From: a virus
Direction: 5' to 3' (one strand)
Length of the DNA stretch: 64,000 nt
Virus record (IMG/VR): IMGVR_UViG_3300045972_000112
Location: 1 to 64,000 of that record
Part shown: positions 3,796 to 27,713 of the stretch, piece by piece
Layout of the letters: each line of letters begins with the position of its first letter
Position numbering within the stretch: the stretch's first letter is position 1
The notes under the pieces: generated by a model
Database searches by the model: none
Told to the model about the DNA's origin: nothing
The model's input: only the letters and a program-made list of their open reading frames with translations
Position numbers and translations under genes: made by a program

Positions 3796-3841
3796 CGGCA
3801 GCGTCCAACCGGAACCCCCGGTCCACGAATCTGGAGCAGAG

Positions 3842-4443: not shown

Positions 4444-4703
4444 GCAACTACAAGTACGGCCCCACCAACCTTCATACGGGTGACTACTACCAGCAGGACT
4501 TCCCCACGATCACCGTGGAGACGCTGGTGGCGGTCGAGCCCAGCAACCGTCGCAACCTCCGAGCCTGGAAGCGTGAGCGGGCAGCCATCGCGAAGAAGGT
4601 CCACCGTCGCTCCGCGCGCGAGCACCTGGCACGACAGCGGGTCACCCCTGCCCTGTCGCGACGTCAGCGCATCCTCGTCGACCGGATCCTGGCCGAGGCC
4701 TGA
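4440..4703 (+). CDS. Small basic protein
   Basis: 87 aa. From residue 35 on it is strongly basic (RRNLRAWKRERAAIAKK, RRSAREHLARQR), suggesting nucleic-acid binding or a ribosome contact. No recognised domain. It contains one of the in-frame CTTCATAC octamers. Confidence 0.55.
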   Translation: MSNYKYGPTNLHTGDYYQQDFPTITVETLVAVEPSNRRNLRAWKRERAAIAKKVHRRSAREHLARQRVTPALSRRQRILVDRILAEA

Positions 4704-4704
4704 G

Positions 4705-4821
4705 ATGGATCCCCGCGACTTCGAGCCAGGGAAGGGGGAGAAGTGGGCTATCGCAATCTTCTTCGGCGCGTGGCTACTGGCCTACGCGACCGCAGTCGCG
4801 TGGAGCCTCTCCCGCCAGTAG
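4705..4821 (+). CDS. Mini membrane protein overlapping the next gene
   Basis: 38 aa, one hydrophobic segment (residues about 14-33). ATG at 4705 lies one base after the upstream stop. Its last 79 bases are also read in another frame by the 4743 gene, so either this is a true overlapping pair or one of the two is not translated. Confidence 0.4.
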   Translation: MDPRDFEPGKGEKWAIAIFFGAWLLAYATAVAWSLSRQ

Positions 4822-5039
4822 CCGAAGAGGCTGAGGAGCAGGGGATCGATACCCGAGGCATCCCGTCCCACGAATGCCTCAACTGCGGCAACAACTGCTT
4901 CAAGATCGTGGCCTGGTTCGAGGACTACAAGATCGCTGGCTACACCACAAGCGGCTACTGCTACCTCTGCGGAGCACCAGTGACCGTACCCACCGAGATC
5001 GACGATCCATACTTCGTAAGGGACTGGGAATACTCATGA
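4743..5039 (+). CDS. Zinc-ribbon protein
   Basis: 98 aa from GTG with GGGGGAGA just upstream. CLNC near residue 45 and CYLC near 73 form a classic two-knuckle zinc ribbon, preceded by a basic and then acidic N-terminus. The start could lie further in, since the first 26 residues overlap the 4705 gene. Function unknown. Confidence 0.6.
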   Translation: MGYRNLLRRVATGLRDRSRVEPLPPVAEEAEEQGIDTRGIPSHECLNCGNNCFKIVAWFEDYKIAGYTTSGYCYLCGAPVTVPTEIDDPYFVRDWEYS

Positions 5040-5302
5040 CTGAGCAGATTCATACCGAGGACGACCCACAGGTCGTCGACCTCCTCCTGGAGACCCGCTA
5101 CCTCCCCGACGAGCACGCGTTCATGTACTCCTGGTCGGTCGAGGGTTACAGCGGCGCGCAGGCCGGATTCATCTTCACGAGCGACGACCCGGAGAGGGCC
5201 GCACTCCTCCTGCGGACCCTCTTCACCCCTGAGGCCATCGCGTCGGTCAGGCAGGGAACCGAGGATCTCCTCGACAAGATGGACGCCGAGGCCGCGCAGT
5301 GA
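5036..5302 (+). CDS. Hypothetical acidic protein, paralogue group
   Basis: 88 aa with C-terminal DLLDKMDAEAAQ resembling the end of the 3240 product. Strands at residues 25-50 are followed by an amphipathic helix. Coupled to both neighbours by 4-base overlaps, directly upstream of the HslV-like gene. Confidence 0.6.
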   Translation: MTEQIHTEDDPQVVDLLLETRYLPDEHAFMYSWSVEGYSGAQAGFIFTSDDPERAALLLRTLFTPEAIASVRQGTEDLLDKMDAEAAQ

Positions 5303-5883
5303 CGGTTATCGTCGCGGCGAGGACCCTCGACCGTGGCGTCGTCGTCGCGGCAGACTCCGAGATCAGCGACGACTGGACCAAGCAGCGCGCCGCCACCCCG
5401 AAGATCTGGACCTCGTCCGGTGCCCTCTTCGGATTCTGCGGCGACCTGCGACCGGCCCAGGTGGTCAAGCATTTCGCGGAGTGGCCGGATCTCTGGCCTG
5501 GCGACGATGAGCCGCTGCTCGACGTGGAGAAGTTCCTCCTCAAGGAGATCTGGGGAGCCATCCAGTGGGCCTCGGAGAGCCACCACACGGTCAAGACGAT
5601 CCTGGAGACCAACCTCCAGTCCGTCGATGCCGACTTCATCGTGGCATGGGGGGACAACCTGGCAGCGGTCTACGGCAACGGCGAGGTCCTGATCCCCTTC
5701 AAGGGCTCTGTGGCCATCGGTAGCGGCTTCGTGCATGCCCAGGGCCATCTGGCCGACGAGGGTCCGTACGAGTACGAGGACGTCCTTGCTGCCGTCCGAA
5801 AGGCCAAGAACGGGGCGGTGGGAGTCGGGGGACCGATCTACGTCGCCAACACCATCGACCTGGAGATCGAGGAGGTCTCATGA
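5299..5883 (+). CDS. HslV/proteasome-beta-like Ntn hydrolase
   Basis: 194 aa, close to HslV length. It starts M-T-V-I-V, so removing Met would expose Thr as the N-terminal nucleophile. An Asp in VVAADSE (18th after Met removal) and a Lys in TPKIW (34th) match the conserved Asp17/Lys33 of HslV and proteasome beta subunits with one extra residue. The GSG turn in AIGSGFVHAQG and the closing strand ANTIDLEIEEV also fit. No HslU/ClpX-type unfoldase is visible in the window, so a host ATPase or peptide-only activity is possible. GTG start in a GTGA overlap. Fold assignment is confident; activity is inferred. Confidence 0.75.
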   Translation: MTVIVAARTLDRGVVVAADSEISDDWTKQRAATPKIWTSSGALFGFCGDLRPAQVVKHFAEWPDLWPGDDEPLLDVEKFLLKEIWGAIQWASESHHTVKTILETNLQSVDADFIVAWGDNLAAVYGNGEVLIPFKGSVAIGSGFVHAQGHLADEGPYEYEDVLAAVRKAKNGAVGVGGPIYVANTIDLEIEEVS

Positions 5884-6185
5884 AGCGCACGCCGTTCGTC
5901 AGCCGCAGGCGTCACAACGACGCCCTAGTTCGCGCCACCTACTGGCATTCGCATTACCAGAACTTGCTGACCAGAGTGGGAAGCCTGAGCGGGGAACTAC
6001 ATCAGCAGGACAAGAAGATCCGGGCCCTGGAACAGGAGAACGCTCTCCTGATAGAGGACAACCGGCGCTGGCGAGACCGTGCCCTGTCCTCCCTGGCTGA
6101 CACCAAGGCCTTGTCGAAGACCCAGGTGCTCGGATCCATCTTCGCCCCAGACCGCTTCGACGTCTTCGGGCATGACGATCCGTGA
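5880..6185 (+). CDS. Coiled-coil protein
   Basis: 101 aa. A basic N-terminus, then residues about 35-75 form a heptad-rich helix (LHQQDKKIRALEQENALLIE). It is coupled to the protease-like gene by an ATGA overlap, so it could be an adaptor or partner of that enzyme, but nothing in the sequence proves this. Confidence 0.6.
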   Translation: MKRTPFVSRRRHNDALVRATYWHSHYQNLLTRVGSLSGELHQQDKKIRALEQENALLIEDNRRWRDRALSSLADTKALSKTQVLGSIFAPDRFDVFGHDDP

Positions 6186-6339
6186 CTGTCATACCCCCTC
6201 GATAGCGTTCTAGACCTGCAAGAAGCGATTCCTTGAGATAGTTCATCTTCCGTTCATCGGGGGAACTGGACAATCGATATAGAAACGCGCAAAGATCTGC
6301 AAACACACCAGAAGCAACAACGAACATCAGGAGCCCCAC
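6186..6339. promoter_or_regulatory. Intergenic control gap with AGAAGCGATT element
   Basis: 154 bases without a gene. It holds AGAAGCGATT (6221-6230), identical to sites at 8328 and 59262. A weak promoter-like pair (TTCATC, 17 bases, GATATA) lies downstream of it. Shine-Dalgarno CAGGAG precedes the ATG at 6340. Confidence 0.4.
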
Positions 6340-6609
6340 ATGAGCACTGGCAGCCTCTACCGCGAGCGAACCCTCATCAACGACGTCGACCTCGCTGGTG
6401 TTTCCGCCACGGTCGAGATCGACCAGGACGGGGACGTCTTCGCCAACGTCGTCATCGCCAGCAAGTACCAGCAGGTCGACCTCGACTTCTCCCCGATCCT
6501 CGGGAGCACGCCGGAGGAGGCCCTCGGGAACCTCATCACCTACCGCGACGCGCTCAACGAGTTCTTCGCGCTGGCCGAGGAAGCGCTCGCGGAGGTCATC
6601 AATGGCTGA
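6340..6609 (+). CDS. Hypothetical acidic protein
   Basis: 89 aa. Strands (VSATVEIDQDGDVFANVVI) are followed by a C-terminal helix ending EEALAEVING, close in layout to the 3240/5036 group. It begins a coupled run of four genes. Function unknown. Confidence 0.6.
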   Translation: MSTGSLYRERTLINDVDLAGVSATVEIDQDGDVFANVVIASKYQQVDLDFSPILGSTPEEALGNLITYRDALNEFFALAEEALAEVING

Positions 6610-6775
6610 GGAGCAGGAACTCCCCTTCATCACTCCGGCGCAGAAGGAGCACGTCATCGATGTGCTTCATACCAGGCGTGACAACGCCTACGCCGCCTTC
6701 GACGTACTGGGGTGGCACGAAGAGGCCCAACTGGGCTACGAGTACGCCATGGCGACGCTCAAGGACGTCCTGTGA
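6602..6775 (+). CDS. Hypothetical small helical protein
   Basis: 57 aa starting inside the end of the upstream gene. Helical, with no cysteine pair. Contains an in-frame CTTCATAC (Leu-His-Thr). Function unknown. Confidence 0.5.
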   Translation: MAEEQELPFITPAQKEHVIDVLHTRRDNAYAAFDVLGWHEEAQLGYEYAMATLKDVL

Positions 6776-7002
6776 GCACCGGGATCAACATCGACCCCAC
6801 CGACCACGTCGAGGACCTGGAGCGGGTACGCAGGGTCCAGGAGTGGCACGGCTGGGTAGAGCACACGGAGATGGATACTGACGTTCTCATCTCGCAGTTT
6901 CTGGACATCCTCCGGGAGACGCTCATCCGTCCCGTCGTTCCTGCCCCGGTGAAGGCCCTCGTGGACCGCATCCTCACGAAGTGGGACGGCGAAGATGAGT
7001 GA
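6772..7002 (+). CDS. Hypothetical small helical protein
   Basis: 76 aa from GTG in a GTGA overlap. Predicted helices around LISQFLDILRETLI and APVKALVDRILTKW. The ending ALVDRILTKW resembles the ending ILVDRILAEA of the 4440 product. Function unknown. Confidence 0.5.
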   Translation: MSTGINIDPTDHVEDLERVRRVQEWHGWVEHTEMDTDVLISQFLDILRETLIRPVVPAPVKALVDRILTKWDGEDE

Positions 7003-7324
7003 CGTAACCGCCGTCGGAACGGACGACCTGGACCCCGAGTTCGCGATCACCGGATCACTCATCGAGATCTGGGTGGATGACGACGACGACCCGCTCATCA
7101 CGGTTCAGAGCCTCGATGACTCCGATTCCATCAACTCGGATCTGGAGGAGAGCCTGGTTGAGGTCGATCACTTCGATGTCGCGCCGTTCCTCACCTTCAC
7201 GCACTTCGACGGCGTCACCGATTACGTCCGAACCGATACCGTCTCGCGTGTTCGAGTCAGCCGGGTGACGCTAGTGGACCTCAACGCTCCGGAGTCATTC
7301 AGTGACGACAAGTCAGAAGACTGA
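6995..7324 (+). CDS. Very acidic protein
   Basis: 109 aa with a DDDDD run near residue 30 and an acidic end. It is beta-rich between the acidic runs. DNA-mimic inhibitors are often this acidic, but charge alone does not prove it. Function unknown. Confidence 0.5.
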   Translation: MSDVTAVGTDDLDPEFAITGSLIEIWVDDDDDPLITVQSLDDSDSINSDLEESLVEVDHFDVAPFLTFTHFDGVTDYVRTDTVSRVRVSRVTLVDLNAPESFSDDKSED

Positions 7325-7353
7325 CGCACTCGGTTCATAGGACGTTCACCTGC

Positions 7354-7382
7354 TTGTCATCTAAGTCTCCGTATGGAAGTAT
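7354..7382 (+). promoter_or_regulatory. Promoter-like site for Lsr2-like gene
   Basis: TTGTCA, 17 bases, AAGTAT. The -10 region runs into an inverted repeat (7379-7420), so binding there could block initiation. Confidence 0.45.
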
Positions 7383-7420
7383 CCGAGTAAAGCAACACTA
7401 GGTCGAAACTACTCAGATAC
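7379..7420. repeat. Inverted repeat in the Lsr2-like gene leader
   Basis: GTATCCGAGTA (7379-7389) and TACTCAGATAC (7410-7420) are 11-base arms with one mismatch and a 20-base gap, just before the Shine-Dalgarno of the Lsr2-like gene. The left arm core ATCCGAGTA recurs at 22058 with an inverted partner. Confidence 0.6.
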
Positions 7421-7434
7421 AAGGAGGCATCGTC

Positions 7435-7797
7435 ATGAAGCAGGAATCCCGGTACTGCGACAGGCAGATCACCAAGGGAAAGTCCAAGCAGGAGTGCATG
7501 AAGCCGGTGACAGAGCCGACGCTCTTCGCGCTTCGAAGCACCGCTTACGAGGTGGATCTGTGTGAGCAGCATCTGGCGGAGTTCGAGGTTCTGCTAGCGG
7601 ACTACATCAAGAACGCCACTCCCACTCGCGAGGTCCGTGCCACGACATTGAACGGTCGCGCGGTTATGCGCGGGAAGACAGGAACCTTCACCACCAAGGA
7701 CGTCCGTATCTGGCTACAGAAGAACGGCTACGACGTCTCTGAGACCGGTCGAATCTCGAACGAACTGATCGAGGAGTACCGGAACAAGACCCGCTAA
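7435..7797 (+). CDS. Lsr2-family DNA-binding protein
   Basis: 120 aa. The last 35 residues (KDVRIWLQKNGYDVSETG, then RISNELIEEY) match the C-terminal domain of Lsr2 and its phage relatives, in which a two-helix unit binds the minor groove of AT-rich DNA. The N-terminus has Cys at residues 8, 21 and 43 with His, possibly a zinc site replacing the usual Lsr2 dimerisation strand. Strong Shine-Dalgarno (AAGGAGG), own promoter-like site and inverted repeat. Lsr2 is an actinobacterial xenogeneic silencer; a phage copy may counter host silencing or control phage genes. Confidence 0.75.
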   Translation: MKQESRYCDRQITKGKSKQECMKPVTEPTLFALRSTAYEVDLCEQHLAEFEVLLADYIKNATPTREVRATTLNGRAVMRGKTGTFTTKDVRIWLQKNGYDVSETGRISNELIEEYRNKTR

Positions 7798-8225: not shown

Positions 8226-8297
8226 GCGCCCTTGGTGTAACGGCAGCACAGTGGCTTCCAAACCCACTAGGTCCGAGTTCAAATCTTGGGGGGCGTG
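8226..8297 (+). tRNA. tRNA-Trp (CCA)
   Basis: Acceptor GCGCCCT/GGGGCGT (two G-T pairs). Anticodon stem GTGGC/CCCAC with a C-C mismatch next to loop TTCCAAA, T arm CCGAG/CTTGG. Discriminator G, next base C, no encoded CCA. Confidence 0.7.
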
Positions 8298-8322
8298 CTG
8301 AGGAACTGGTTCAGACAGTCGC

Positions 8323-8351
8323 TTGACAGAAGCGATTCGACTCGGCTAAGT
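8323..8351 (+). promoter_or_regulatory. Promoter of the main tRNA array
   Basis: TTGACA at 8323 is followed, 16-17 bases on, by GCTAAGT. The spacer begins with GAAGCGATT, the recurrent element. It lies upstream of 23 of the 24 tRNAs. Confidence 0.6.
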
Positions 8352-8359
8352 TCCTCTTC

Positions 8360-8434
8360 GTGGCCAGGAAGAGCGGCCACAACTTGATCCTTGAGAACTG
8401 AACAGGGTGTGAGACCTCGGGAGGAGATCCCGAG
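8360..8434. other. Two leader hairpins before tRNA-Pro
   Basis: GTGGCC/GGCCAC (8360-8380) and CTCGGGA/TCCCGAG (8416-8434), both perfect stems. No gene here. They may shape or process the array transcript. Confidence 0.5.
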
Positions 8435-8437
8435 TAT

Positions 8438-8512
8438 CTAGGTGTGGGGCAGTAGGTCAGCCCGCCTGGTTTGGATCCAGGAGTACCGCAGGTTCGAATC
8501 CTGCCACCTAGA
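8438..8512 (+). tRNA. tRNA-Pro (TGG)
   Basis: Perfect acceptor CTAGGTG/CACCTAG, D stem GGGC/GCCC, anticodon stem CCTGG/CCAGG around TTTGGAT, T arm GCAGG/CCTGC. Discriminator A, then C. Confidence 0.9.
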
Positions 8513-8520
8513 CGAGAGGC

Positions 8521-8552
8521 GCGGAGAGGGTTCGAATCCCTCCGTGGGCCCC
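8521..8552 (+). pseudogene. Orphan tRNA 3' part (T arm and acceptor strand)
   Basis: GAGGG/CCCTC around TTCGAAT followed by CGTGGGC reads as the 3' end of a tRNA, but no D or anticodon arm precedes it. The matching type of 5' part lies just downstream (8578-8613). Confidence 0.5.
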
Positions 8553-8577
8553 GTTAGCCTTCGGGTGTAAGCGGGAC

Positions 8578-8613
8578 AACCTGCGTGGTGTAACGGCAGC
8601 ACACGTCTCGCTA
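8578..8613 (+). pseudogene. Orphan tRNA 5' part (acceptor strand and D arm)
   Basis: CCTGCG then TG, a D arm GTG/CAC around TAACGGCAG, and the start of an anticodon stem (ACGTCTC), cut off by tRNA-Ile. CCTGCG can pair with CGTGGG of the orphan 3' part upstream with two wobbles. Decayed gene or permuted tRNA. Confidence 0.4.
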
Positions 8614-8616
8614 TAT

Positions 8617-8690
8617 CGATCCCGTCCCGGCTTGGTGAAGGGTCCCGTCTGATACGCGGGTATTGCGAGGTTCAAATCCTCGGGGATCGA
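8617..8690 (+). tRNA. tRNA-Ile (GAT)
   Basis: Acceptor CGATCCC/GGGATCG, D stem CCC/GGG, anticodon stem CCCGT/GCGGG around CTGATAC, T arm CGAGG/CCTCG. Discriminator A, then C. Confidence 0.9.
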
Positions 8691-8752
8691 CAGCCTGGCC
8701 ACTCCCTCTTTCCGCGATCCTCTATAGGCGTGGGGGAGCACGTAGGCTCAAA

Positions 8753-8788
8753 GACGTGGGGTCATCAGTGGCCATAGGGCCCCACGTC
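8753..8788. other. Spacer hairpin
   Basis: GACGTGGGG/CCCCACGTC, 9 perfect pairs, 18-base loop, between tRNA-Ile and tRNA-Gly. Confidence 0.6.
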
Positions 8789-8907
8789 AACATCACGGAA
8801 CCATGTCCAGTAAGGCTGATGGCCTAAGCCGCCCGCTCGCGCGGGTGATCGCTGGTCTCGGAGGGTGGCTTGATCACCACTACAGCGTCGGATCCTGATC
8901 AGGTCCG

Positions 8908-8959
8908 GCCACAACTCGGAGATCCGCGTGTTCGTCGGTTCGAATCCGGCACTGTGGCT
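8908..8959 (+). pseudogene. Shortened tRNA-like sequence
   Basis: GCCACA and TGTGGC close a 52-base unit with a good T arm (GTCGG/CCGGC) but no D arm and no readable anticodon arm. Probably a deleted tRNA. A palindrome CCTGATCAGG lies just upstream. Confidence 0.4.
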
Positions 8960-9053
8960 GCTCCGACTGACCGAAGAACGAGGCGACAGAGCGCGCCTAC
9001 CCCGCTAGGTCGGGGGTCGACGGGAGGCTCGTGGTTCCGCAATGCAAGTCAAT

Positions 9054-9127
9054 GGGGTTGTTGCCAAGTGGCCTAAGGCATCTGTCTTCCAAACAGATAA
9101 TCGCGGGTTCGAATCCCGCCTGCCCCT
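9054..9127 (+). tRNA. tRNA-Gly (TCC)
   Basis: Acceptor GGGGTTG/CTGCCCC with one T-T mismatch, D stem GCC/GGC, anticodon stem TCTGT/ACAGA around CTTCCAA, T arm GCGGG/CCCGC. Discriminator T, then C. Confidence 0.85.
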
Positions 9128-9131
9128 CTCT

Positions 9132-9204
9132 GCCGTTGGAACTCTTTAGGAAGAGTGCCTGCCTTGTAAGCAGGATGCAGCAGGTTCGAATCCTGTCAGC
9201 GGCT
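9132..9204 (+). tRNA. tRNA-Thr (TGT)
   Basis: Acceptor GCCGTTG/CAGCGGC, D stem ACTC/GAGT, anticodon stem CCTGC/GCAGG around CTTGTAA, T arm GCAGG/CCTGT. Only 4 bases separate it from tRNA-Gly. Confidence 0.9.
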
Positions 9205-9261
9205 CTGGGTGAAGCGAGTCCTAGCCTGTTGCGACGGGCCGCATATCTCGTGGATCCCTAT

Positions 9262-9335
9262 TGCTCTCTAGGGGAATTGGCAGACCCACCCGGCTCTGAA
9301 CCGGGAGTGTCCAGGTTCGAGACCTGGGAGAGCAG
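9262..9335 (+). tRNA. tRNA-Gln (CTG)
   Basis: Perfect acceptor TGCTCTC/GAGAGCA, D stem GGG/CCC, anticodon stem CCCGG/CCGGG around CTCTGAA, T arm CCAGG/CCTGG. Discriminator G, then C. Confidence 0.9.
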
Positions 9336-9336
9336 C

Positions 9337-9483
9337 GTGAAGGTGCTGCACACCTTCATCCCGGCCCGAGCGGGACAAATCAACGGGAGTGCGCGGGTGC
9401 ATCTTAGGGACTCGGATAACGGTAGCGCTGTCCTGGAATACAGCGTCGGCTGGGCGAGGGTGTGCAGACCGTCTCGCCCAGCC
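9337..9483. other. Two spacer hairpins
   Basis: GTGAAGGTG/CACCTTCAT (9337-9359) and GGCTGGGCGAG/CTCGCCCAGCC (9448-9483, 11 perfect pairs, 14-base loop) lie between tRNA-Gln and tRNA-Glu. No gene seen. Confidence 0.6.
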
Positions 9484-9488
9484 ACCAC

Positions 9489-9560
9489 GTCCCCATGGGC
9501 TATGGGATAGGCCTTCTCCCTTTCACGGAGACAGAGTGGGTTCGAGTCCCACTGGGGGTA
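9489..9560 (+). tRNA. tRNA-Glu (TTC)
   Basis: Acceptor GTCCCCA/TGGGGGT with two wobble pairs, D stem GGC/GCC, anticodon stem TCTCC/GGAGA around CTTTCAC, T arm GTGGG/CCCAC. Discriminator A, then C. Confidence 0.85.
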
Positions 9561-9678
9561 CTAGATCGGAGCGCCTGATCCGCCCACTCTTTCGGTCGCG
9601 GATGAACGGGATTCCTCGGAAAGCGTCGGGTTCGAGCATGACCGGCGAGGCGGAAAGGATCCCTGGCCCGATCTTTAA

Positions 9679-9751
9679 GGGGTAGTAGCACAACTGGCAG
9701 TGCATCTGCTTTGCAAGCAGACGGTTCGGGGTTCGAGTCCCCGCTATTCCA
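9679..9751 (+). tRNA. tRNA-Ala (TGC)
   Basis: Acceptor GGGGTAG/CTATTCC, D stem GCAC/GTGC, anticodon stem TCTGC/GCAGA around TTTGCAA, T arm CGGGG/CCCCG. Followed by CGCAAG, a trailer shared with three other tRNAs here. Confidence 0.9.
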
Positions 9752-9801
9752 CGCAAGTAGTTCGGCACCTATACCCACCACGCGCACGAGGAGGTTCGAC
9801 A

Positions 9802-10182
9802 GTGGCCTTGCAGCACAAGCATCTACTGGTCCAGGGCAGGATCAACCAGCCCCTTACCGACGAGCGTGAGGCCGAGCGTTGGCTTCACTGGCTCGTTCAG
9901 CAGATCGATATGAAGGTCGTACTCTCGCCTCGCGCGTTCTACGTGCAGGCGGTCGGGAATCGCGGGATCACGGCGAGCGTCAATATCGAGACGTCGCATA
10001 TCGCGTTTCATATCTGGGACGAGCAGGAGCCGCCGCTCATCCAGTTCGATCTCTACACCTGCGGCCCGCTCGACCACGAGCAGGTCATAGGACTGCTCAA
10101 CCGCAAGTTGGACTTCGAGTCGATGCAGTACCTGGTGCTGGATCGCGAAGATGGATTCCAGGTCACGCACGTCAAGACCTGA
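9802..10182 (+). CDS. S-adenosylmethionine decarboxylase-like (SpeD family) protein
   Basis: 126 aa, the length of the short bacterial SpeD/SpeH class. KHLL near the start, then S65-H66 in ETSHIAFH, H70, and C87 in LYTCG match the pyruvoyl-forming serine and the catalytic His and Cys of the family at the usual spacing. The residue before the serine is Thr, where family members usually have Glu. SpeD enzymes self-cleave at that Ser and decarboxylate SAM for spermidine synthesis; some relatives act on arginine or ornithine instead. GTG start after GAGGAGG. It lies between tRNA-Ala and tRNA-Glu in the same direction. Family call is firm, substrate unknown. Confidence 0.8.
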   Translation: MALQHKHLLVQGRINQPLTDEREAERWLHWLVQQIDMKVVLSPRAFYVQAVGNRGITASVNIETSHIAFHIWDEQEPPLIQFDLYTCGPLDHEQVIGLLNRKLDFESMQYLVLDREDGFQVTHVKT

Positions 10183-10190
10183 GATCCTCC

Positions 10191-10265
10191 GTCCCCATGG
10201 AGGAATTGGGTAGACTCACCGCCCTCTCAAGGCGGGTCTTGCGGGTTCAAATCCCGCTGGGGATG
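10191..10265 (+). tRNA. tRNA-Glu (CTC)
   Basis: Acceptor GTCCCCA/TGGGGAT, D stem GAG/CTC, anticodon stem CCGCC/GGCGG around CTCTCAA, T arm GCGGG/CCCGC. Second glutamate tRNA, starting 8 bases after the SpeD-like gene. Discriminator G, then C. Confidence 0.9.
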
Positions 10266-10269
10266 CTCT

Positions 10270-10343
10270 GGTTTCATGGCGCAGTCAGGTAGCGCAGCCG
10301 GTTGTCAGCCGGAAGGTCGCGGGTTCAAGTCCCGCTGGAACCG
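10270..10343 (+). tRNA. tRNA-Asp (GTC)
   Basis: Acceptor GGTTTCA/TGGAACC, D stem GCGC/GCGC, anticodon stem GCCGG/CCGGA (one mismatch at the base) around TTGTCAG, T arm GCGGG/CCCGC. Discriminator G as usual for Asp, then C. Confidence 0.9.
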
Positions 10344-10416
10344 CTCGGTGTCTGGTGGGGTCGAGCCCGCCAGTGTTGGAGTTCATATGCCAACAGGGGA
10401 GGCCCGCACCTGCAAT

Positions 10417-10490
10417 GCCCCTCTAGTCCAACTGGCAGAGGCGTCCGGCTTAGATCCGGAATGTTGGGGGTTCGAATCCCTCGGGGGGCA
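10417..10490 (+). tRNA. tRNA-Leu (TAG), short variable loop
   Basis: Acceptor GCCCCTC/GGGGGGC, D stem GTC/GGC, anticodon stem TCCGG/CCGGA around CTTAGAT, T arm GGGGG/CCCTC. The variable loop is only about 5 bases, whereas bacterial leucine tRNAs normally carry a long arm. Discriminator A, then C. Confidence 0.85.
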
Positions 10491-10597
10491 CGGGAGTTTC
10501 TTGCTTCTCCTGCGGCGCGTCCGCGTCAAGAGCAAGTGGTGGGCCGTGTGGGAGACCGCACCCCCTGTGTTGGCACACTAGGCAGTGTCAGCGCGAC

Positions 10598-10646
10598 ACG
10601 GTGGGATCCGTGGCATCACAAAGAGAAACGAAGCGGATCCCACCGT
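10598..10646. other. Spacer hairpin, 13 perfect pairs
   Basis: ACGGTGGGATCCG (10598-10610) pairs perfectly with CGGATCCCACCGT (10634-10646), 23-base loop, ending 3 bases before tRNA-Leu(CAA). No T run follows, so a simple terminator is unlikely. Confidence 0.7.
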
Positions 10647-10648
10647 TT

Positions 10649-10722
10649 GCCCGTCTAGTCCAATTGGCAGAGACGTCGGCTTCAAACCCCGAAGGTTCTC
10701 GGTTCGAATCCGAGGATGGGCA
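10649..10722 (+). tRNA. tRNA-Leu (CAA), short variable loop
   Basis: Acceptor GCCCGTC/GATGGGC, D stem GTC/GAC, anticodon stem TCGGC/CCCGA (C-C mismatch next to the loop) around TTCAAAC, T arm CTCGG/CCGAG. Also lacks a long variable arm. Discriminator A, then C. Confidence 0.8.
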
Positions 10723-10724
10723 CT

Positions 10725-10796
10725 GTGACAGTAGTTCAGCGGTAGAACGCCCGACTGTGACTCGGGTCGTCGCGGGTTCAAATCCCGCCTGTCACC
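10725..10796 (+). tRNA. tRNA-His (GTG)
   Basis: Perfect acceptor GTGACAG/CTGTCAC, D stem GTTC/GAAC, anticodon stem CCCGA/TCGGG around CTGTGAC, T arm GCGGG/CCCGC. Discriminator C as in bacterial His tRNA. The base before position 1 is T, so the usual encoded G-1 is absent. Confidence 0.9.
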
Positions 10797-10799
10797 CCA

Positions 10800-10870
10800 G
10801 GTCCTGTGGCTGAAAGGCTAGGCAGCGGGTTGCAACCCCGTCGATGTCGGTTCGATTCCGGCCAGGTCCT
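10800..10870 (+). tRNA. tRNA-Cys (GCA)
   Basis: Acceptor GGTCCTG/CAGGTCC with one T-T mismatch, D stem GCT/GGC, anticodon stem GCGGG/CCCGT around TTGCAAC, T arm GTCGG/CCGGC. Discriminator T, then C. Confidence 0.85.
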
Positions 10871-10872
10871 CC

Positions 10873-10945
10873 CTCGGTGTAGTTCAATGGATGAACGAAG
10901 CGCTACGAACGCTTGCGTATGGGGGTTCGAGTCCCTTCACCGAGA
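10873..10945 (+). tRNA. tRNA-Arg (ACG)
   Basis: Perfect acceptor CTCGGTG/CACCGAG, D stem GTTC/GAAC, anticodon stem AAGCG/CGCTT around CTACGAA, T arm GGGGG/CCCTT. A34 would need deamination to inosine by the host TadA to read all CGN partners. Confidence 0.9.
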
Positions 10946-11002
10946 CTGGGTACGTCCTCACCTCCCGGCGCTTCTGGGCCTGAACCCCAGCGAGTACCCA
11001 GT
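10945..11002. other. Spacer hairpin
   Basis: ACTGGGTAC/GTACCCAGT, 9 perfect pairs. The left arm begins on the discriminator base of tRNA-Arg, so folding and tRNA 3' processing could compete. Confidence 0.55.
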
Positions 11003-11020
11003 ACGGGTTAACGAGGACAT

Positions 11021-11092
11021 GGGTTCCTGGCGTAAGCGGAAACGCACTGGTTTGAAGAACCAGGGTTGGAGGTTCGAGTCCTTCGGTTCCCA
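11021..11092 (+). tRNA. tRNA-Phe (GAA)
   Basis: D stem GCGT/ACGC, anticodon stem CTGGT/ACCAG around TTGAAGA, T arm GGAGG/CCTTC. The acceptor GGGTTCC/GGTTCCC has two adjacent T-T mismatches in its middle, which is unusual. Followed by CGCAAGA. Confidence 0.8.
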
Positions 11093-11102
11093 CGCAAGAT
11101 AG

Positions 11103-11175
11103 CGACGTGTGGCGCAATTGGCAGCGCAGATGGCCTACACCCATCCGGCTGGGGGTTCGAGTCCCTCCGCGTCGA
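11103..11175 (+). tRNA. tRNA-Val (TAC)
   Basis: Acceptor CGACGTG/CGCGTCG, D stem GCGC/GCGC, anticodon stem GATGG/CCATC around CCTACAC, T arm GGGGG/CCCTC. Discriminator A, then C. Confidence 0.9.
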
Positions 11176-11210
11176 CTGCACCATCCACCCGCGCTCAGGT
11201 GAGCATGTAG

Positions 11211-11234
11211 CGCTAGGACTTCATCTGCCTAGCG
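11211..11234. other. Spacer hairpin
   Basis: CGCTAGG/CCTAGCG, 7 perfect pairs, 10-base loop, flanked by CCCGCGC and GCGCGGG that could extend the structure. It sits before the 11328 gene. Confidence 0.5.
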
Positions 11235-11327
11235 GTGCGCGGGATGCACGGGCCCTGGCTGCGGGTGGCTAAGCCGGGGCCACACTTCCCAGTAAACTAG
11301 AGGCTGGACAAGCCCGGGAGATCAACG

Positions 11328-11663
11328 ATGGCTCATAGCAACGCCCTCTACCAGCGCGACGTTCGACTCAAGTCGGTGGAGCGGGTGACTGTAGCCATCG
11401 CTGCGGTGGCGCTAGCGGCCACCTGCGCCCTAGTGGCTGGGATCGAGGCAAGCGCTCACCGAACGGTAGCCGCCCCGGTTCCTGGCCCGACCGTGTACGT
11501 CACAGAGACGGTAACGGTGACCCAAACTCCAGTGCCTACCCCAAGCCCGCGTCATGCGATCAAGGCAGTAGCCGCGCCGAAGCCGTCACCAACACCGCAC
11601 AAGGTGCTGTACACCCCAAAGACGACCCCCAAGAAGCCGGTAGCGGCTAGCGGGGGCAGTTAA
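11328..11663 (+). CDS. Membrane-anchored Pro/Thr-rich protein
   Basis: 111 aa. A basic N-terminus (about 20 residues), one hydrophobic segment (about residues 21-43), then a long Thr/Pro/Lys-rich tail (PTVYVTETVTVTQTPVPTPS) that is likely extracytoplasmic and extended. Shine-Dalgarno GGGAGA. It is embedded in the tRNA array and its stop codon abuts tRNA-Asn. Such tails span or bind the cell wall; a superinfection or lysis-timing role is possible but unproven. Confidence 0.65.
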   Translation: MAHSNALYQRDVRLKSVERVTVAIAAVALAATCALVAGIEASAHRTVAAPVPGPTVYVTETVTVTQTPVPTPSPRHAIKAVAAPKPSPTPHKVLYTPKTTPKKPVAASGGS

Positions 11664-11747
11664 TCCTCTGTCGCCTAACGGTATGGCACCTGGCTGTTAA
11701 CCAGGCGTGGCGCAAGCCATGTACAGGTTCGAATCCTGTCGGAGGAG
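11664..11747 (+). tRNA. tRNA-Asn (GTT) with long variable arm
   Basis: Acceptor TCCTCTG/CGGAGGA, D stem GCC/GGC, anticodon stem CCTGG/CCAGG around CTGTTAA, T arm ACAGG/CCTGT. The 17-base variable region forms a TGGC-GCAA-GCCA hairpin, a class II arm normally restricted to Leu, Ser and Tyr. Discriminator G fits both Asn and Ser. The anticodon says Asn, the arm looks like Ser. Confidence 0.8.
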
Positions 11748-11759
11748 CGCAAGAACTAC

Positions 11760-11840
11760 GTGTCGGAGGCCCCAAGGTGGGGCTGGTGGCTGTAACCCAC
11801 CCGCTTTCGAGCATGCTTGGTTCGATTCCAAGTCGGCACA
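11760..11840 (+). tRNA. tRNA-Tyr (GTA)
   Basis: Acceptor GTGTCGG/TCGGCAC, D stem GCCC/GGGC, anticodon stem GGTGG/CCACC around CTGTAAC, class II variable arm GCT-TTCG-AGC as expected for bacterial Tyr, T arm CTTGG/CCAAG. Discriminator A, then C. Confidence 0.9.
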
Positions 11841-11996
11841 CAACCTCTCAAACTGCCCGGTGATTCTGAGTCCGTGTTGGGGAATCGGGGCAAGTGGGAA
11901 GGCCAGGGTAGACCCGGCGTCCTTATCTCTCGGGTGAGTCTGAGAAGGGGACGCTACGGACGAAACCGGGGATCCACGGACACCTCGGTCGTCTCA

Positions 11997-12068
11997 GCCG
12001 TGATAGTTCAACGGAAGAACGCCCGCCTCCTAAGCGGGTGGCTGGTGGTTCGAATCCACCTCATGGCA
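11997..12068 (+). tRNA. tRNA-Arg (CCT)
   Basis: Acceptor GCCGTGA/TCATGGC, D stem GTTC/GAAC, anticodon stem CCCGC/GCGGG around CTCCTAA, T arm GGTGG/CCACC. It reads AGG, a rare codon in GC-rich actinobacteria. The 156-base spacer before it holds no gene. Confidence 0.9.
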
Positions 12069-12118
12069 CGGGGTCTACGGCCACACTCCGACCCCTACTA
12101 AACGGTGTGGCGCTCTAC

Positions 12119-12165
12119 CCTCCTCCTCCCGGCCACACTGGGCCCAAACTGTCGGGAGGGGGAGG
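12119..12165. other. Spacer hairpin, 13 pairs
   Basis: CCTCCTCCTCCCG (12119-12131) pairs with CGGGAGGGGGAGG (12153-12165) with one G-T, 21-base loop, just before tRNA-Lys. Confidence 0.65.
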
Positions 12166-12169
12166 TCCA

Positions 12170-12243
12170 GCCTCGCTAACTCAGTTGGTCAGAGTAGCGG
12201 ACTCTTAATCCGCGAGTCGTTGGTTCGAATCCAACGCGGGGCA
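12170..12243 (+). tRNA. tRNA-Lys (CTT)
   Basis: Acceptor GCCTCGC/GCGGGGC, D stem ACTC/GAGT, anticodon stem GCGGA/TCCGC around CTCTTAA, T arm GTTGG/CCAAC. Followed by CGCAAGA and then the tmRNA. Confidence 0.9.
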
Positions 12244-12255
12244 CGCAAGACCTAC

Positions 12256-12636
12256 GGGGTCGACAGGTTTCGACTTGTTGGAGACTCTTCTAGGAGCGAC
12301 CGGACTTGGGCAGAGTCTTGAAACGGCCCGACGCAATACTCGGCAACATCGAGAAGGTCAACTTCCTCGGTGCAGTCCGTGACGCCAACCTCGTCACTGT
12401 CTGAACCTAGGTAACGGCCAAACCAGGGACCTAACAAGGCACCCGGGGTTCGGGTAGAACGACCTAGCAACAGAACCTACCCCCCACGCGCGAGGGCAGC
12501 GCGCTGACAGTGTCCGGAAAGACGGGCAGGACTGCTGGAGAGACAGATGAAACACGGACCTCGACGTCGAGGAATGGTCGTACGTCTTAGTCGTTAGTCA
12601 ATACCAAGGACGGGGGTTCGATTCCCCCCGACTCCA
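12256..12636 (+). ncRNA. ssrA: tmRNA (trans-translation RNA)
   Basis: About 380 bases. The 5' end GGGGTCGACAGGTTTCGAC is typical of tmRNA, and GGGGTCG pairs with CGACTCC at the 3' end after a T arm (GGGGG/CCCCC around TTCGATT). The tag frame probably resumes at GCA (12333) and ends at TGA (12402-12404): 23 residues beginning AILGN and ending NLVTV. The end is unlike the usual LAA, so host protease targeting may differ. GC-rich pairable segments downstream fit the pseudoknots. It would rescue stalled ribosomes and recycle amino acids during infection. Confidence 0.85.
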
Positions 12637-12643
12637 AGAGCGC

Positions 12644-13129
12644 TTAGCCAGTAGCACTGAGCGTTGTTGGAGTCGCGTCAATGTCCCCGTACTTGGAAAG
12701 GATCTCGTTAGCCCAGGCAACCGCATCCCTAGCGCGGATACCAGCGGGTTGCGGTCGAATCCATAGTTCTAGGTTCTCTAGGCGGTTGTCACCCTTTACG
12801 CCATTCATATGGTGAACGTTCTCTCCTTCTGAGAGAAACCTGCCTAGGTGATCCTCCATTACAAGTATGTGCTCGAAGACATATGGGCCTCCGCGAGGGT
12901 GCCCATCGATACGACGCATGACGTACCCCTTCTTGTGTCGGGCGACACCGCCCTTCCAGTTCCCGTTTGCCGAGCCGGTGTAGTCGGTGCAGGCCCGACA
13001 CTTCGGGGCTTCCTTAGCCTTTCTCTCTCCGCAGATGCACTCGTTGTACCTTACGGCGCGACAACGCGGGCAGTTGAGATGGCGGCTTGACGGGGAGAAC
13101 TCTTCCTTGCATGATCTACAGGTACGCAT
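12644..13129 (-). CDS. HNH homing endonuclease
   Basis: 161 aa. The N-terminus has several knuckles (CRSC, CPRC, CICG, CRAC), probably two zinc ribbons. The C-terminal half holds the HNH core: YVFEHILVMEDHLGR, then ENVHHMNGVKGDNRLENLE, with paired His and the closing Asn/Asp. The start is set at ATG 13129, because upstream reading runs through tRNA genes. It is opposite to the tRNA array and ends 8 bases from the tmRNA, as expected of a mobile endonuclease gene settled among tRNAs. Confidence 0.8.
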   Translation of the reverse strand: MRTCRSCKEEFSPSSRHLNCPRCRAVRYNECICGERKAKEAPKCRACTDYTGSANGNWKGGVARHKKGYVMRRIDGHPRGGPYVFEHILVMEDHLGRFLSEGENVHHMNGVKGDNRLENLELWIRPQPAGIRARDAVAWANEILSKYGDIDATPTTLSATG

Positions 13130-13177
13130 GTGGAGAAGCGTATCGTAGAAGCAACAACTCTTGTCTTCTCCACGCAC

Positions 13178-13251
13178 TGCGGTGTGACTGGAGCGGTTCC
13201 AGCCCTGCCTCATAAGCAGAACAGACGTCGGTTCGAATCCGACCACCGCTA
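13178..13251 (+). tRNA. tRNA-Met (CAT)
   Basis: Acceptor TGCGGTG/CACCGCT with a T-T mismatch at 1-72, D stem CTGG/CCAG, anticodon stem CCTGC/GCAGA (one mismatch at the base) around CTCATAA, T arm GTCGG/CCGAC. It lacks the GGG/CCC stem of initiators, so an elongator or a lysidine-type Ile tRNA. Discriminator A, then C. Confidence 0.75.
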
Positions 13252-13393
13252 CGCGTTCTTCCCGTGCTTTCCGGGCCACGTAGGCTTTGGTAAGCGTGAA
13301 CCTCCGAACTAACCGGGTAAGGTTCGGACGCCAGAGAGCGGCCCGTCGGTGCCGTGAGTGTTCTCTCGTACGGCGAAGATCAGAAACCGACAT

Positions 13394-13477
13394 GGGAGGT
13401 CTAACATCGGTGGCGTGTCGCGGTCTTGAAAACCGTAGGTTGTAACAGACCTGGGGGTTCGAATCCCTCACCTCCCG
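13394..13477 (+). tRNA. tRNA-Ser (TGA)
   Basis: Perfect acceptor GGGAGGT/ACCTCCC, D stem ACA/TGT, anticodon stem GCGGT/ACCGT around CTTGAAA, long variable arm AGGT/ACCT, T arm GGGGG/CCCTC. Discriminator G, then C. Confidence 0.9.
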
Positions 13478-13482
13478 CGTAC

Positions 13483-13518
13483 CCCCCATACTCGCCTCTG
13501 ATTCAAGCGGTATGGGGG
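13483..13518. other. Spacer hairpin overlapping a tRNA 5' end
   Basis: CCCCCATAC/GTATGGGGG, 9 perfect pairs. The right arm includes the first two bases of tRNA-Ser(GCT), so it could affect RNase P access. Confidence 0.55.
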
Positions 13519-13610
13519 ACAGATACGGGCGGCGTCCGGCTGGACGAGGAGCACGATTGCTAGTCGTGTAGCAGGTAGAACTGCTGGGGGTTCGAGTCCC
13601 TCGCTGTCCG
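13517..13610 (+). tRNA. tRNA-Ser (GCT), enlarged D region
   Basis: Anticodon stem CACGA/TCGTG around TTGCTAG, variable arm AGCAG/CTGCT, T arm GGGGG/CCCTC, acceptor GGACAGA/GCTGTCC with one mismatch. Between acceptor and anticodon stem there are 28 bases instead of about 19, including GTCC-GGCT-GGAC, so the D arm is expanded or rearranged. Confidence 0.75.
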
Positions 13611-13649
13611 CGTTCTCACACCCTGTTCGGTCTCAGGGACACTTGTCTC

Positions 13650-14351: not shown

Positions 14352-14480
14352 ATGACGCTTGACGAGTTCATCGAAGAGACGCTTCTTGGCTGGAAGCCGG
14401 AGCCGTGGCAGTTGCGGATCCTTCATACGGTCGCTTCTACCTCAGAATCACTCGAATTGAGTCAAAGGGCAGGGGCTTAA
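14352..14480 (+). CDS. Short ORF running into the integrase gene end
   Basis: 42 aa starting MTLDEFIEETLLGW. The first half looks like real coding sequence, including an in-frame CTTCATAC; the last 14 codons overlap the 3' end of the integrase gene on the other strand. GAAGCG (14324) and a -10-like GGCTAT lie 10-25 bases upstream and there is no Shine-Dalgarno. It may be the truncated head of a gene cut when the integrase module arrived. Confidence 0.4.
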   Translation: MTLDEFIEETLLGWKPEPWQLRILHTVASTSESLELSQRAGA

Positions 14481-15777
14481 CCGCTCCGTAGCCCCCCTTT
14501 CCGATGGGAAGCACCAGGATCCGCTCGATCAGAGCCTCTGCGACGCTCCTACGGGACTCGAACGAACCTTCCAACCATACCTGGGCCAGTTCCGGGGACT
14601 CCTGACGCGTCAGAGCGCCCTGTTCGGCCCGTAGTGTCAGAAGTTTGTGCCGAATATCTGACATCAGTTCCAGTCCCTCGGCTCCCAGGGCCCCTGAGAG
14701 GACCTGCTCACGCGTCCTGGTGGCCAGATCCTCCAGCCTGGCGATCTCTGCGCCCAGATCGGGCCCTACGAGTTCCATGGAGGCCTCAGGAACGCGCTGG
14801 AGGGCCGCTAGGACGACCTGGTCCACTGTGTCGTTGAGCCAGCGATAGTCCCTGGAGACCTTGTTGCAGCCCCCTCGACCGGCATCGCAGGCCCATCGGG
14901 CTCGATCCTTGGTCACCTGAGCCGCCATCTTGGAGTCACAGAGCCCACAGACGACCAATCCGGCCAGAAGATGGACCTTCGGGGGCCTACCCCTCTTGGA
15001 GTACCCCCGGAGGACCTTCTGGAGGGCCCGGAAAGTGTCCTCGTCGATGAGTGGGACCATGTCTCCCCGACCTATCTCCTGGCCCTTGTAGGTCAGGATC
15101 CCGGCTGTGCGGGGGTTGGTGAGGACCCTGCGGACCGCTGTGCGACTCGTGGGGGCTCCTATGTCTCTGCTACCCCAGTCGCGTAGTACGTCACCGACAG
15201 TGGCCCCGTCCAGGATCATCTGGGCACCCTCTCGGACGGCCCGGGCCTGCGCCAGGTTGATCACCCGGTAGGAGCCGTCGTCCCACCCGAAGGCGGGATG
15301 TCCCCCCGAGGATGCCCCACCGTTCTCACGGCGCTGGGACAGTGCCCGCTCGACGCGCTCGGAGATCCGCTCGGCCTCCTGCTGCGCCACGGCTGCCTTG
15401 ATATTGATGATCATGCGACCGCTGGCGGACTCGGTGTCGTCCCCCTCTGTGGTCATGAAGGGGATGGAACGCTCCTCGCGCCAGGACAGGAACTTGGCCA
15501 TCTCGAAGACGCGCCTGGTGAGGCGGTCCATGTTGTAGACGATGATCCCGTCGAGACGTCCAGCCTCCGCGTCAGCCAGCAGACGGTCGTACTCGGGCCG
15601 GGGTGCCTTGGAGCGGGTCGAGGCGGAGACGTCGTTGTCGATGTAGGTCCCCGCGACGCCCCAGCCCTTGGACAGTGCCAGGGCCTGACAGTCCTCTATC
15701 TGGCGCTCGACGCCGAGGGCCTGACCAGTACGGTCCTTGGAGATCCGGGCGTAGATACCAGCCTGCTGTGGGGACAT
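14437..15777 (-). CDS. int: Large serine recombinase (integrase)
   Basis: 446 aa. The N-terminal resolvase domain holds YARISKDRTG with the catalytic Ser and the Arg motif YNMDRLTRR near residue 85. The recombinase domain follows (HPAFGWDDGS, then the NPRTAGILTYKG region), a zinc ribbon (CGLCDSK, WACDAG, GGCNK) near residues 275-310, and a coiled-coil C-terminus. This is the plan of phage serine integrases such as phiC31 or Bxb1, though on the short side. Leftward, opposite to most genes. No att site could be proven; the inverted repeat at 15800 is adjacent. Confidence 0.9.
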   Translation of the reverse strand: MSPQQAGIYARISKDRTGQALGVERQIEDCQALALSKGWGVAGTYIDNDVSASTRSKAPRPEYDRLLADAEAGRLDGIIVYNMDRLTRRVFEMAKFLSWREERSIPFMTTEGDDTESASGRMIINIKAAVAQQEAERISERVERALSQRRENGGASSGGHPAFGWDDGSYRVINLAQARAVREGAQMILDGATVGDVLRDWGSRDIGAPTSRTAVRRVLTNPRTAGILTYKGQEIGRGDMVPLIDEDTFRALQKVLRGYSKRGRPPKVHLLAGLVVCGLCDSKMAAQVTKDRARWACDAGRGGCNKVSRDYRWLNDTVDQVVLAALQRVPEASMELVGPDLGAEIARLEDLATRTREQVLSGALGAEGLELMSDIRHKLLTLRAEQGALTRQESPELAQVWLEGSFESRRSVAEALIERILVLPIGKGGYGAVKPLPFDSIRVILR

Positions 15778-16623: not shown

Positions 16624-17967
16624 ATGGCAACCCTGTCAGAGATCGCAGACGAATACCCCACCATCCGAGAGGTGCTCGAAGGACCACACCTTCATACCGA
16701 GGCCGTCACACGGCTTTCCGAACTTGGCGTCGAGACATCGGAGACGGCTGTCCGCCGATTCCGAGCCAAGATCAAGTGGGTTCGTCCTGAGCCAGAAGAG
16801 GACGAGACCCCCCTCAGGCCGACCGTTCGTGCCGACGAGGACCCCGATGGTCTGACCGTCTATCACGACAGTTGGCCCGTCCAGTTGGGTGAGGACTACG
16901 CCCCGCTGATCGAGTTCTTCGGCTATGACCCCCAGCACTTCTACGTCGATGACAACGGCGTGAAGATGTCGAAGTGGCAGCAGTCCAAGGGGAACAAGAA
17001 CGGCAGCCGCGACGTCATCTGGCTGTACTCCTACAAGATCCGGCTCAAGCGGATCAAGGAGCCCATCACCGGGATCGAGGATCTCGACGAGGCCGTCAAG
17101 CGGATCAACAAGATCAAGCCGATCAAGCGAACGCTCGGGATCCCGATGGACCCGATCTTCTACGTCCACCAGCAGGGCGACGAGCAGATCGGTAAGAGCG
17201 AGGGCGGCGGGATCGCAGGCGTCACAAGGCGTATCGAGGACACGCTCCAGAGGACGTACGACAACCTCAAGGCAGAACTCAAGACGCACCCGAACATCGT
17301 GGGGATCCTGGACGTCGCCAACGGGGACACGGTCGAGAACATCTTCGGCCACTACCCCAGCCAGCAGCGCACCACGGAGACGCTCCGCAAGCAGTTCCAG
17401 GCCGGTCGCAATCTCGACATCCAGCGAACCCGTGGCCTGGCCGAGTTTGGTCTTCCGATCACGAAGAAGTACGTGACCGACAACCACGGCGAGATGCGGC
17501 AGAGCATCGGGATGGCTCCCTTCACCTCGGAGTCGGACAACCTGGGGCTCATCCTCGCGGAGAGCGTGCGGGACGTCCTGACGGAGTCGAATCTCGCGGA
17601 CCTGCTGACCTTCCTGATCCCGCACGACGAGTGGTGGACCCTCCTTCCGGACGCGTTCGGTACGGGCCTCAACATCGCCACGGGTCACGGTCACAAGGCC
17701 AAGGGGACGACGGCGGCGTGGGTGAAGTCACAGCGCGACTACCTGCACTTCCACCACGGCTTCAAGGCTCACCTGGCCCTGCTCGGGCACAAGCACCACT
17801 TCTACCTGGAGGACATCTCCGGGACGACGGTGATCCAGACCCCGAGCCTGGACGGTGGGTCCGACTACTTCACCGCTGGATACGGCAACACCTCCAAGAG
17901 CGGGGCAGTGGCCTACCTGGCTGGCCCGCAGTTCAACCAGTACTTCACGAACCTGGTGGTCCTATGA
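16624..17967 (+). CDS. Mre11-like metallophosphoesterase with N-terminal HTH
   Basis: 447 aa. The first 60 residues look like a helix-turn-helix (EAVTRLSELGVETSETAVRR). The calcineurin-like motifs follow: GDEQIG near residue 187, NGDTVEN near 236, DNHGEM near 287, then GHGH near 358 and LLGHKHHF near 386. The order and metal ligands fit Mre11/SbcD-type nucleases used in recombination or DNA end processing. The Shine-Dalgarno is GAGGAG. It starts the rightward operon across from the integrase module. Confidence 0.75.
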   Translation: MATLSEIADEYPTIREVLEGPHLHTEAVTRLSELGVETSETAVRRFRAKIKWVRPEPEEDETPLRPTVRADEDPDGLTVYHDSWPVQLGEDYAPLIEFFGYDPQHFYVDDNGVKMSKWQQSKGNKNGSRDVIWLYSYKIRLKRIKEPITGIEDLDEAVKRINKIKPIKRTLGIPMDPIFYVHQQGDEQIGKSEGGGIAGVTRRIEDTLQRTYDNLKAELKTHPNIVGILDVANGDTVENIFGHYPSQQRTTETLRKQFQAGRNLDIQRTRGLAEFGLPITKKYVTDNHGEMRQSIGMAPFTSESDNLGLILAESVRDVLTESNLADLLTFLIPHDEWWTLLPDAFGTGLNIATGHGHKAKGTTAAWVKSQRDYLHFHHGFKAHLALLGHKHHFYLEDISGTTVIQTPSLDGGSDYFTAGYGNTSKSGAVAYLAGPQFNQYFTNLVVL

Positions 17968-27707: not shown

Positions 27708-27713
27708 TCTCAG

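Follow-up and report, generated by a model that had tools for sequence, protein, structure and literature searches.

The window analysed here is a stretch of 64,000 nucleotides (nt) from a 67,226-base IMG/VR contig (IMGVR_UViG_3300045972_000112, a soil virus of bacteria), and it carries an array of transfer RNA (tRNA) genes together with a transfer-messenger RNA (tmRNA). ARAGORN returns 24 tRNAs between positions 8226 and 13611, all on the + strand, with anticodons for 20 of the 20 amino acids, and a tmRNA at 12256–12636 (+). This is exactly the set of 24 named tRNAs plus tmRNA that an earlier note on this DNA had folded by hand. With 20 isotypes and 24 tRNAs in 5.4 kb, the array is denser than the 2 tRNAs per kb or more that define a dense cluster, and no further tRNA was found outside it in the contig. 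The virus is a myovirus, as shown by its genes for terminase, portal, capsid, sheath, tube and baseplate, and the cultured phages closest to it are those of the Streptomyces BRock group (capsid 76%, terminase 60–63%, portal 61% and tube 69% identity), and judged by its homologous terminase, portal, capsid and tail genes the contig is a BRock-like actinobacterial myovirus (Borockvirus lineage).

The tRNA genes and the tmRNA

Grouped by codon family, the 24 anticodons fill 23 of 23 boxes once and add a second Glu tRNA, a filling that 24 uniform random draws would produce with p ~1.5e-8. Every four-codon box except that of Arg has only a tRNA with U at position 34 (U34): Pro(UGG) at 8438–8513 (63.6 bits in the Rfam model RF00005), Gly(UCC) at 9054–9128 (62.2 bits), Thr(UGU) at 9132–9205 (56.1 bits), Ala(UGC) at 9679–9752 (65.9 bits), Leu(UAG) at 10417–10491 (51.2 bits), Val(UAC) at 11103–11176 (58 bits) and Ser(UGA) at 13394–13478 (86% identity to the Ser-UGA gene of phage Alone3). 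The Arg box has Arg(ACG) at 10873–10946 (52.7 bits). Each pyrimidine box has a G34 tRNA, namely Ile(GAU) at 8617–8691, Asp(GUC) at 10270–10344 (61.2 bits), His(GUG) at 10725–10799 (69.6 bits), Cys(GCA) at 10799–10873 (51.5 bits), Phe(GAA) at 11021–11093 (51.3 bits, two U.U pairs in its acceptor stem), Asn(GUU) at 11664–11748 (57.2 bits), Tyr(GUA) at 11760–11841 and Ser(GCU) at 13527–13611. Four boxes are served by a C34 tRNA only: Gln(CUG) at 9262–9336 (53 bits), Leu-TTR by Leu(CAA) at 10649–10723 (51.6 bits), Arg-AGR by Arg(CCU) at 11997–12069 (69.6 bits) and Lys(CUU) at 12170–12244 (66.8 bits). Trp(CCA) at 8226–8298 (44.8 bits), a tRNA with a CAU anticodon at 13178–13252 (40.6 bits) and Glu(UUC) at 9489–9561 (49.5 bits) complete the set, along with Glu(CUC) at 10191–10266 (53.8 bits), which makes Glu the only redundant box. 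With superwobble, 55 of 61 codons are readable by this set, the unreadable ones being AAA, AGA, ATA, CAA, TTA and CGG.

Are all these genes sound? Covariance models might have marked several as pseudogenes and left some amino acids without their only tRNA; 20 of the 24 in fact lie above the RF00005 gathering score, but the Ile and Tyr genes, each the sole tRNA for its amino acid, are the weakest of the set and qualify its claim to all 20. Two genes have scores below the threshold, Ile(GAU) at 27.1 bits, with intact acceptor, anticodon and T stems and a G at position 8, and Ser(UGA) at 27.9 bits. The class II tRNA-Sec model fits both Ser genes better (36.7 and 32.2 bits), as it does some Ser genes of the cultured relatives, and RF00005 scores are low for the relatives' Ser genes too. 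The Tyr gene, with an atypical D arm, gives no RF00005 match in the window, and the Tyr genes of relatives score 38–41 bits. Thus, the members of the set that look doubtful from their sequences are Tyr and Ile rather than Ser. The single CAU tRNA has a U1.U72 mismatch, which is typical of initiators and also present in the initiator-like tRNA of BRock; it may therefore be an initiator, in which case an elongator Met tRNA may be missing from the set.

Both Leu genes are 75 nt long and lack the long variable arm. Among relatives, presence of the Leu arm is scattered, with repeated losses in array-bearing phages, and an armed Ser or Tyr tRNA is kept in every array-bearing phage that has Ser or Tyr tRNAs. 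Seryl- and tyrosyl-tRNA synthetases depend more on the arm than leucyl-tRNA synthetase does, so the loss of arms in Leu and their retention in Ser and Tyr suggest selection for charging. The Asn gene has instead acquired an unusual long variable arm (85 nt), a gain seen only in the window among the relatives examined. Other changes of the variable arm occur in Ile of BRock (84 nt), in His of soil contigs (86 nt) and in the initiator Met of the BRock group (81–84 nt).

The tmRNA (RF00023, 65.9 bits) has a tRNA-like domain, the alanine signal G3.U70 and an internal tag frame encoding GNIEKVNFLGAVRDANLVTV. Its tag shares frame and start (GN-EKV-FL) with GNVEKVDFLSGSRDLVLA, the tag of the related IMG/VR contig G043, and since frame and start are common to both, the window's tag is probably translated. 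The usual LAA ending is absent from both. A second ARAGORN call, a "permuted tmRNA" at 12547–13012, overlaps the first and is spurious. Scans for consensus signals found no terminator in the array clearly above shuffled sequences, and four weak promoter-like sites that we did not use.

In BRock-group phages, an unannotated RNA of 78–81 nt matches the tmRNA model end to end (37–65 bits), with the whole tag and pseudoknot part replaced by a CCG-CACG-CGG hairpin. G3.U70 is invariant in it, and 8 pairs show double-sided covariation. It lies in BRock (KX925554, 97140–97220, − strand), pSt2308 (33356–33436), GiJojo (17025–17105) and Alone3 (18155–18234; L123–L126 for the four), and also in the contigs G036–G042. 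This tagless mini-tmRNA may serve as a decoy for SmpB or as a ligand of the phage Ro protein.

Codon use is fitted to the tRNA set

In a tree of terminase and capsid, the window groups with G043 and with tRNA-poor soil contigs rather than inside the BRock clade; the deepest branches of this tree are poorly supported. Contigs with a 75–79% identical terminase have only 0–5 tRNAs each and G043 has 18; together with the tree position, these counts indicate that the array is labile. G+C content is 62% in the window and 52% in the BRock group. Both the Lsr2-like genes and the relatives suggest that the host is an actinobacterium, and terminase and integrase scans of genome contigs for prophages gave no match.

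The earlier note had proposed comparing the anticodons with the codon use of the phage. Across 20 structural genes (7,089 window codons) with homologues in the relatives, five of the unreadable codons occur only twice in all: AAA in 0 of 206 Lys codons, CAA in 1 of 301 Gln, TTA in 0 of 528 Leu, AGA in 0 of 335 Arg and ATA in 1 of 352 Ile. In the same genes of tRNA-poor relatives, whose third-position G+C is higher than that of the window, AAA makes up 9.6% of Lys, CAA 4.0% of Gln, ATA 3.2% of Ile and AGA 1.1%. Codons with their own phage tRNA behave in the opposite way: CTA accounts for 6.4% of Leu in the window against 1.0% in tRNA-poor relatives, a 6-fold difference, and AGG for 10.7% of Arg against 4.1%. 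In four-codon boxes A/(A+G) is 0.30 in the window and 0.15 in the tRNA-poor relatives, and C/(C+T) is lower only in the U34-only boxes (0.65 vs 0.80; G34 boxes, 0.91 vs 0.89).

The fit is closest in the late structural genes (24579–59248, + strand; terminase, portal, capsid, sheath and baseplate, with a fibre module at 26.2–36.5 kb inside). Unreadable codons other than CGG occur 2 times in 8,040 codons of late genes and 24 times in 6,757 codons of other genes (p=8e-7), the two classes being assigned by position on genes called by a simple script in an incomplete contig, with some small calls possibly wrong. CGG/CGN is likewise lower in late genes (0.13 vs 0.25). The readable codon GAA changes in the opposite direction (0.18 in late and 0.12 in other genes), so the late-gene pattern is not a general avoidance of A. 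The closer fit of late genes agrees with a hypothesis of Yang et al. 2021 (cited in PMC11025619), under which phages acquire tRNAs in response to degradation of host translation and late genes should match the phage's own tRNAs better than early ones.

We then compared 11 array-bearing phages on homologous genes; G038 (20 tRNAs) was excluded from the statistics as too distant, with one homologous gene and 25.8% capsid identity. In the seven phages without a Leu-UAA tRNA, TTA accounts for none of the 1,960 Leu codons, and it makes up 3–31% in the four that own one. ATA behaves in the same way, except for 7 of 246 in G043. G036, G037 and G041, the three that own Leu-UAA and Ile-UAU, are closely related to each other, with G042 as sister, which leaves few independent events. 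When phages were collapsed into seven lineages, seven codons (TTA, ATA, AGA, CAA, AAA, TCC and ACC) separated by tRNA ownership, with a near tie for ATA (stratified permutation over seven codons and seven lineages, p=5e-5, without phylogenetic correction). CGG, for which BRock-group phages own no tRNA, is nearly gone from most of them (observed/expected ratio 0–0.07); the ratio is intermediate in the window (0.36) and 0.85 in tRNA-poor relatives.

At first sight G036 and G041 were counterexamples, using AGA without an Arg-UCU tRNA. Both in fact own a tRNA-Arg(UCU) that ARAGORN overlooks, 78 nt long, without a D arm and with a long variable arm (L135, 3023–3100, − strand, and L231, 10176–10253, + strand), so the two exceptions disappear.

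What the array may do for the phage

It has long been asked why phages carry tRNAs, and the BRock-like family amounts to a natural experiment on this question: close relatives own from 0 to ~30 tRNAs, and the test codons, including the host-style TCC and ACC, follow ownership. We read the array of the window as a phage-borne, nearly complete minimal decoding set with its own tmRNA, in which phage tRNAs carry a large share of late decoding (probability about 0.6). The tight match between the genes and the set suggests that part of the decoding machinery used late in infection comes from the phage itself. We infer that the genes are expressed and that the tRNAs, one per codon family, are charged by host synthetases; superwobble would let each U34 tRNA read its entire four-codon box, and ribosomes that stall would be recycled by the tmRNA with a phage tag of non-LAA ending. 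The phage tRNAs would take a large share of late decoding because host tRNAs are by then scarce, degraded or outcompeted. What demand remains, as for CGG, for Ile or Tyr should their genes prove poor, and perhaps for elongator Met, would fall to the host.

How far does this go towards the near independence from host tRNA pools that the earlier note proposed? The avoidance of unreadable codons, strongest in late genes, and the test codons that follow each lineage's own tRNAs argue for it, but independence is incomplete, as CGG persists and ~1/3 of all codons, C-ending ones among them, need superwobble or host tRNAs. Several observations weigh against a large share of phage tRNAs in late decoding. 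There are 161 CGG codons, 17% of Arg overall, and if U34 reads only A and G, 32% of the used codons fall outside the set. CAA, TTA and ATA are scarce in tRNA-poor relatives too, and the codon shares still include any adaptation to the codon use of the host. The lineages are few and not independent. AAA is a weak point: ownership of Lys-UUU does not make it common in BRock-group phages, so that part of the codon avoidance has another cause.

Host tRNAs may instead stay available throughout, with the set boosting only those codons that are commoner in the phage than in its GC-rich host. This simple compensation, which we consider rather unlikely, accounts well for own tRNAs matching codons enriched relative to tRNA-poor relatives (CTA, AGG and A-ending codons in four-codon boxes) and for CAA, TTA and ATA being rare even in the latter. 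It gives no reason to expect tRNAs for codons that any GC-rich host decodes with ease (Phe, Asp, Asn, Tyr, Ile, Gln-CUG and Lys-CUU), a layout of one tRNA per box, or the depletion of CGG in the window and the BRock group, since such a host should have no difficulty with CGG. Because the test codons follow tRNA ownership, and because CGG is nearly gone from the BRock group, which has no tRNA for it, and used freely in tRNA-poor relatives, the data favour lost access to host tRNAs over compensation. In a more extreme form of the preferred reading, late decoding would be self-contained as in an organelle: one tRNA per box, superwobbling U34, reduced tRNAs, an own tmRNA, genes purged of unreadable codons, host tRNAs effectively absent, and codon use in the family tracking gain and loss of single phage tRNAs. 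We regard this form as possible but tentative.

Access to host tRNAs could also be lost to a defence, the phage tRNAs replacing those cut by anticodon nucleases or toxin tRNases. This replacement (PMC10264068) and host-tRNA depletion as a driver (PMC10264068, PMC11025619), which the earlier note had raised as a possible cause, are published hypotheses for other phages. Avoidance of unreadable codons is compatible with such a role, and cultured relatives have an RNA ligase gene and a gene for a Ro-like RNA-binding protein within or beside the array. Among the called proteins of the 64-kb window, part of an incomplete contig, neither an RNA ligase nor a Ro protein was recognised, and a full set is not called for if one or two isotypes are cut; an origin in anti-defence thus appears improbable. 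We give equally little credence to codon use that mirrors a host of extreme bias, with the array incidental. The terminase and integrase scans, which did not find the host, leave room for this explanation, but the CTA and AGG shares of the window would be odd for a GC-rich host, and the bias against unreadable codons tracks the array across lineages and differs between late and other genes. Finally, the array could be a degenerate, mostly non-functional collection, as the atypical Ile, Tyr and Met genes, the two armless Leu genes and the two U.U pairs of Phe might suggest. The scores of 20 of 24 genes above the curated RF00005 value, the filling of all boxes with nearly zero redundancy, and the loss of arms in Leu but not in Ser or Tyr, as expected under selected charging, make this very improbable. 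Cultured members of the family such as BRock or Alone3 on Streptomyces make the question of lost access to host tRNAs testable.

Known systems and neighbouring genes

Phage tRNA sets for all 20 amino acids, which the earlier note called rare, have already been published for BRock (29 tRNAs; PMC7453282), Momo (PMC4472892) and XacN1 (PMC5852040), and eight phage tRNA clusters with 20 isotypes have been counted (PMC6409571), so that the statement was half right. The present analysis adds that the set has one tRNA per box and that codon use, compared across relatives, matches the tRNAs that a phage owns.

BRock, GiJojo, pSt2308, Alone3 and LuckySocke resemble the window in being myoviruses with homologous capsid and terminase and an array upstream of a phosphoesterase-MazG-terminase block. 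Their 28–30 tRNAs are interleaved with genes and stand in another order than the 24 of the window, which has one tRNA per box including Cys, no second isoacceptor for Lys, Gln, Thr or Met, and a full-length tmRNA in place of the tagless form. The annotated BRock tRNA-Cys (L074, 24958–25038) is not recovered by ARAGORN and is encoded on the other strand from the array; the published all-20 set of BRock may rest on this doubtful gene.

The contig G043 (100 kb, locus L164) has structural genes collinear with those of the window. Its 18 tRNAs begin with Trp-Pro-(Ile)-Gly-Thr in the order of the window, with Gln nearby; it has a homologous tmRNA (369 nt) with a tag in the same frame, and it too has only the CUU and CUG tRNAs for Lys and Gln. 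Unlike the window it lacks Phe, Ile, Met, Tyr, His and Cys tRNAs and has Arg-UCU instead of Arg-CCU. The mycobacteriophages of cluster C1 (Momo, Bxz1) are likewise myoviruses, with 34 tRNAs for 20 amino acids and a tmRNA (PMC4472892), but belong to an unrelated lineage, have no tRNA for TCN serine and resemble their host in codon use. In the Xanthomonas jumbo phage XacN1, too, the tRNAs serve all 20 amino acids and codon use is linked to them (PMC5852040); in contrast to the window, its genome is 385 kb long, its tRNAs lie in terminal repeats and it has extra tRNA-processing genes.

Within the array, an HNH endonuclease gene of the homing type (12644–13129, − strand; 161 residues; PF13392, phrog_20891) lies between the tmRNA and the CAU tRNA and is possibly homing into the array. 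Longer minus-strand open reading frames across tRNAs, such as 12644–13489, are antisense readings in which only the 161-residue HNH part is credible. Directly after the array, a serine integrase gene (14437–15777, − strand) encodes a protein with ~32% identity to Streptomyces phage integrases and contains 5 unreadable codons, more than any other gene; lysogeny genes are absent from BRock, which is reported to be virulent. We discarded tRNA-dependent lysogeny (PMC10865867), which needs a tyrosine integrase, attP/attB in a host tRNA gene and a phage tRNA that matches it, since the integrase is a serine recombinase.

Elsewhere in the window, a left block of small genes (29–7797) includes genes for an Lsr2-like protein, an S-adenosylmethionine decarboxylase and a member of an HslV-like peptidase family, the scan having pooled these with three other small genes. 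Between terminase and portal, the fibre module (26203–36457) contains collagen-like tail fibres and a beta-1,4-glycosyltransferase.

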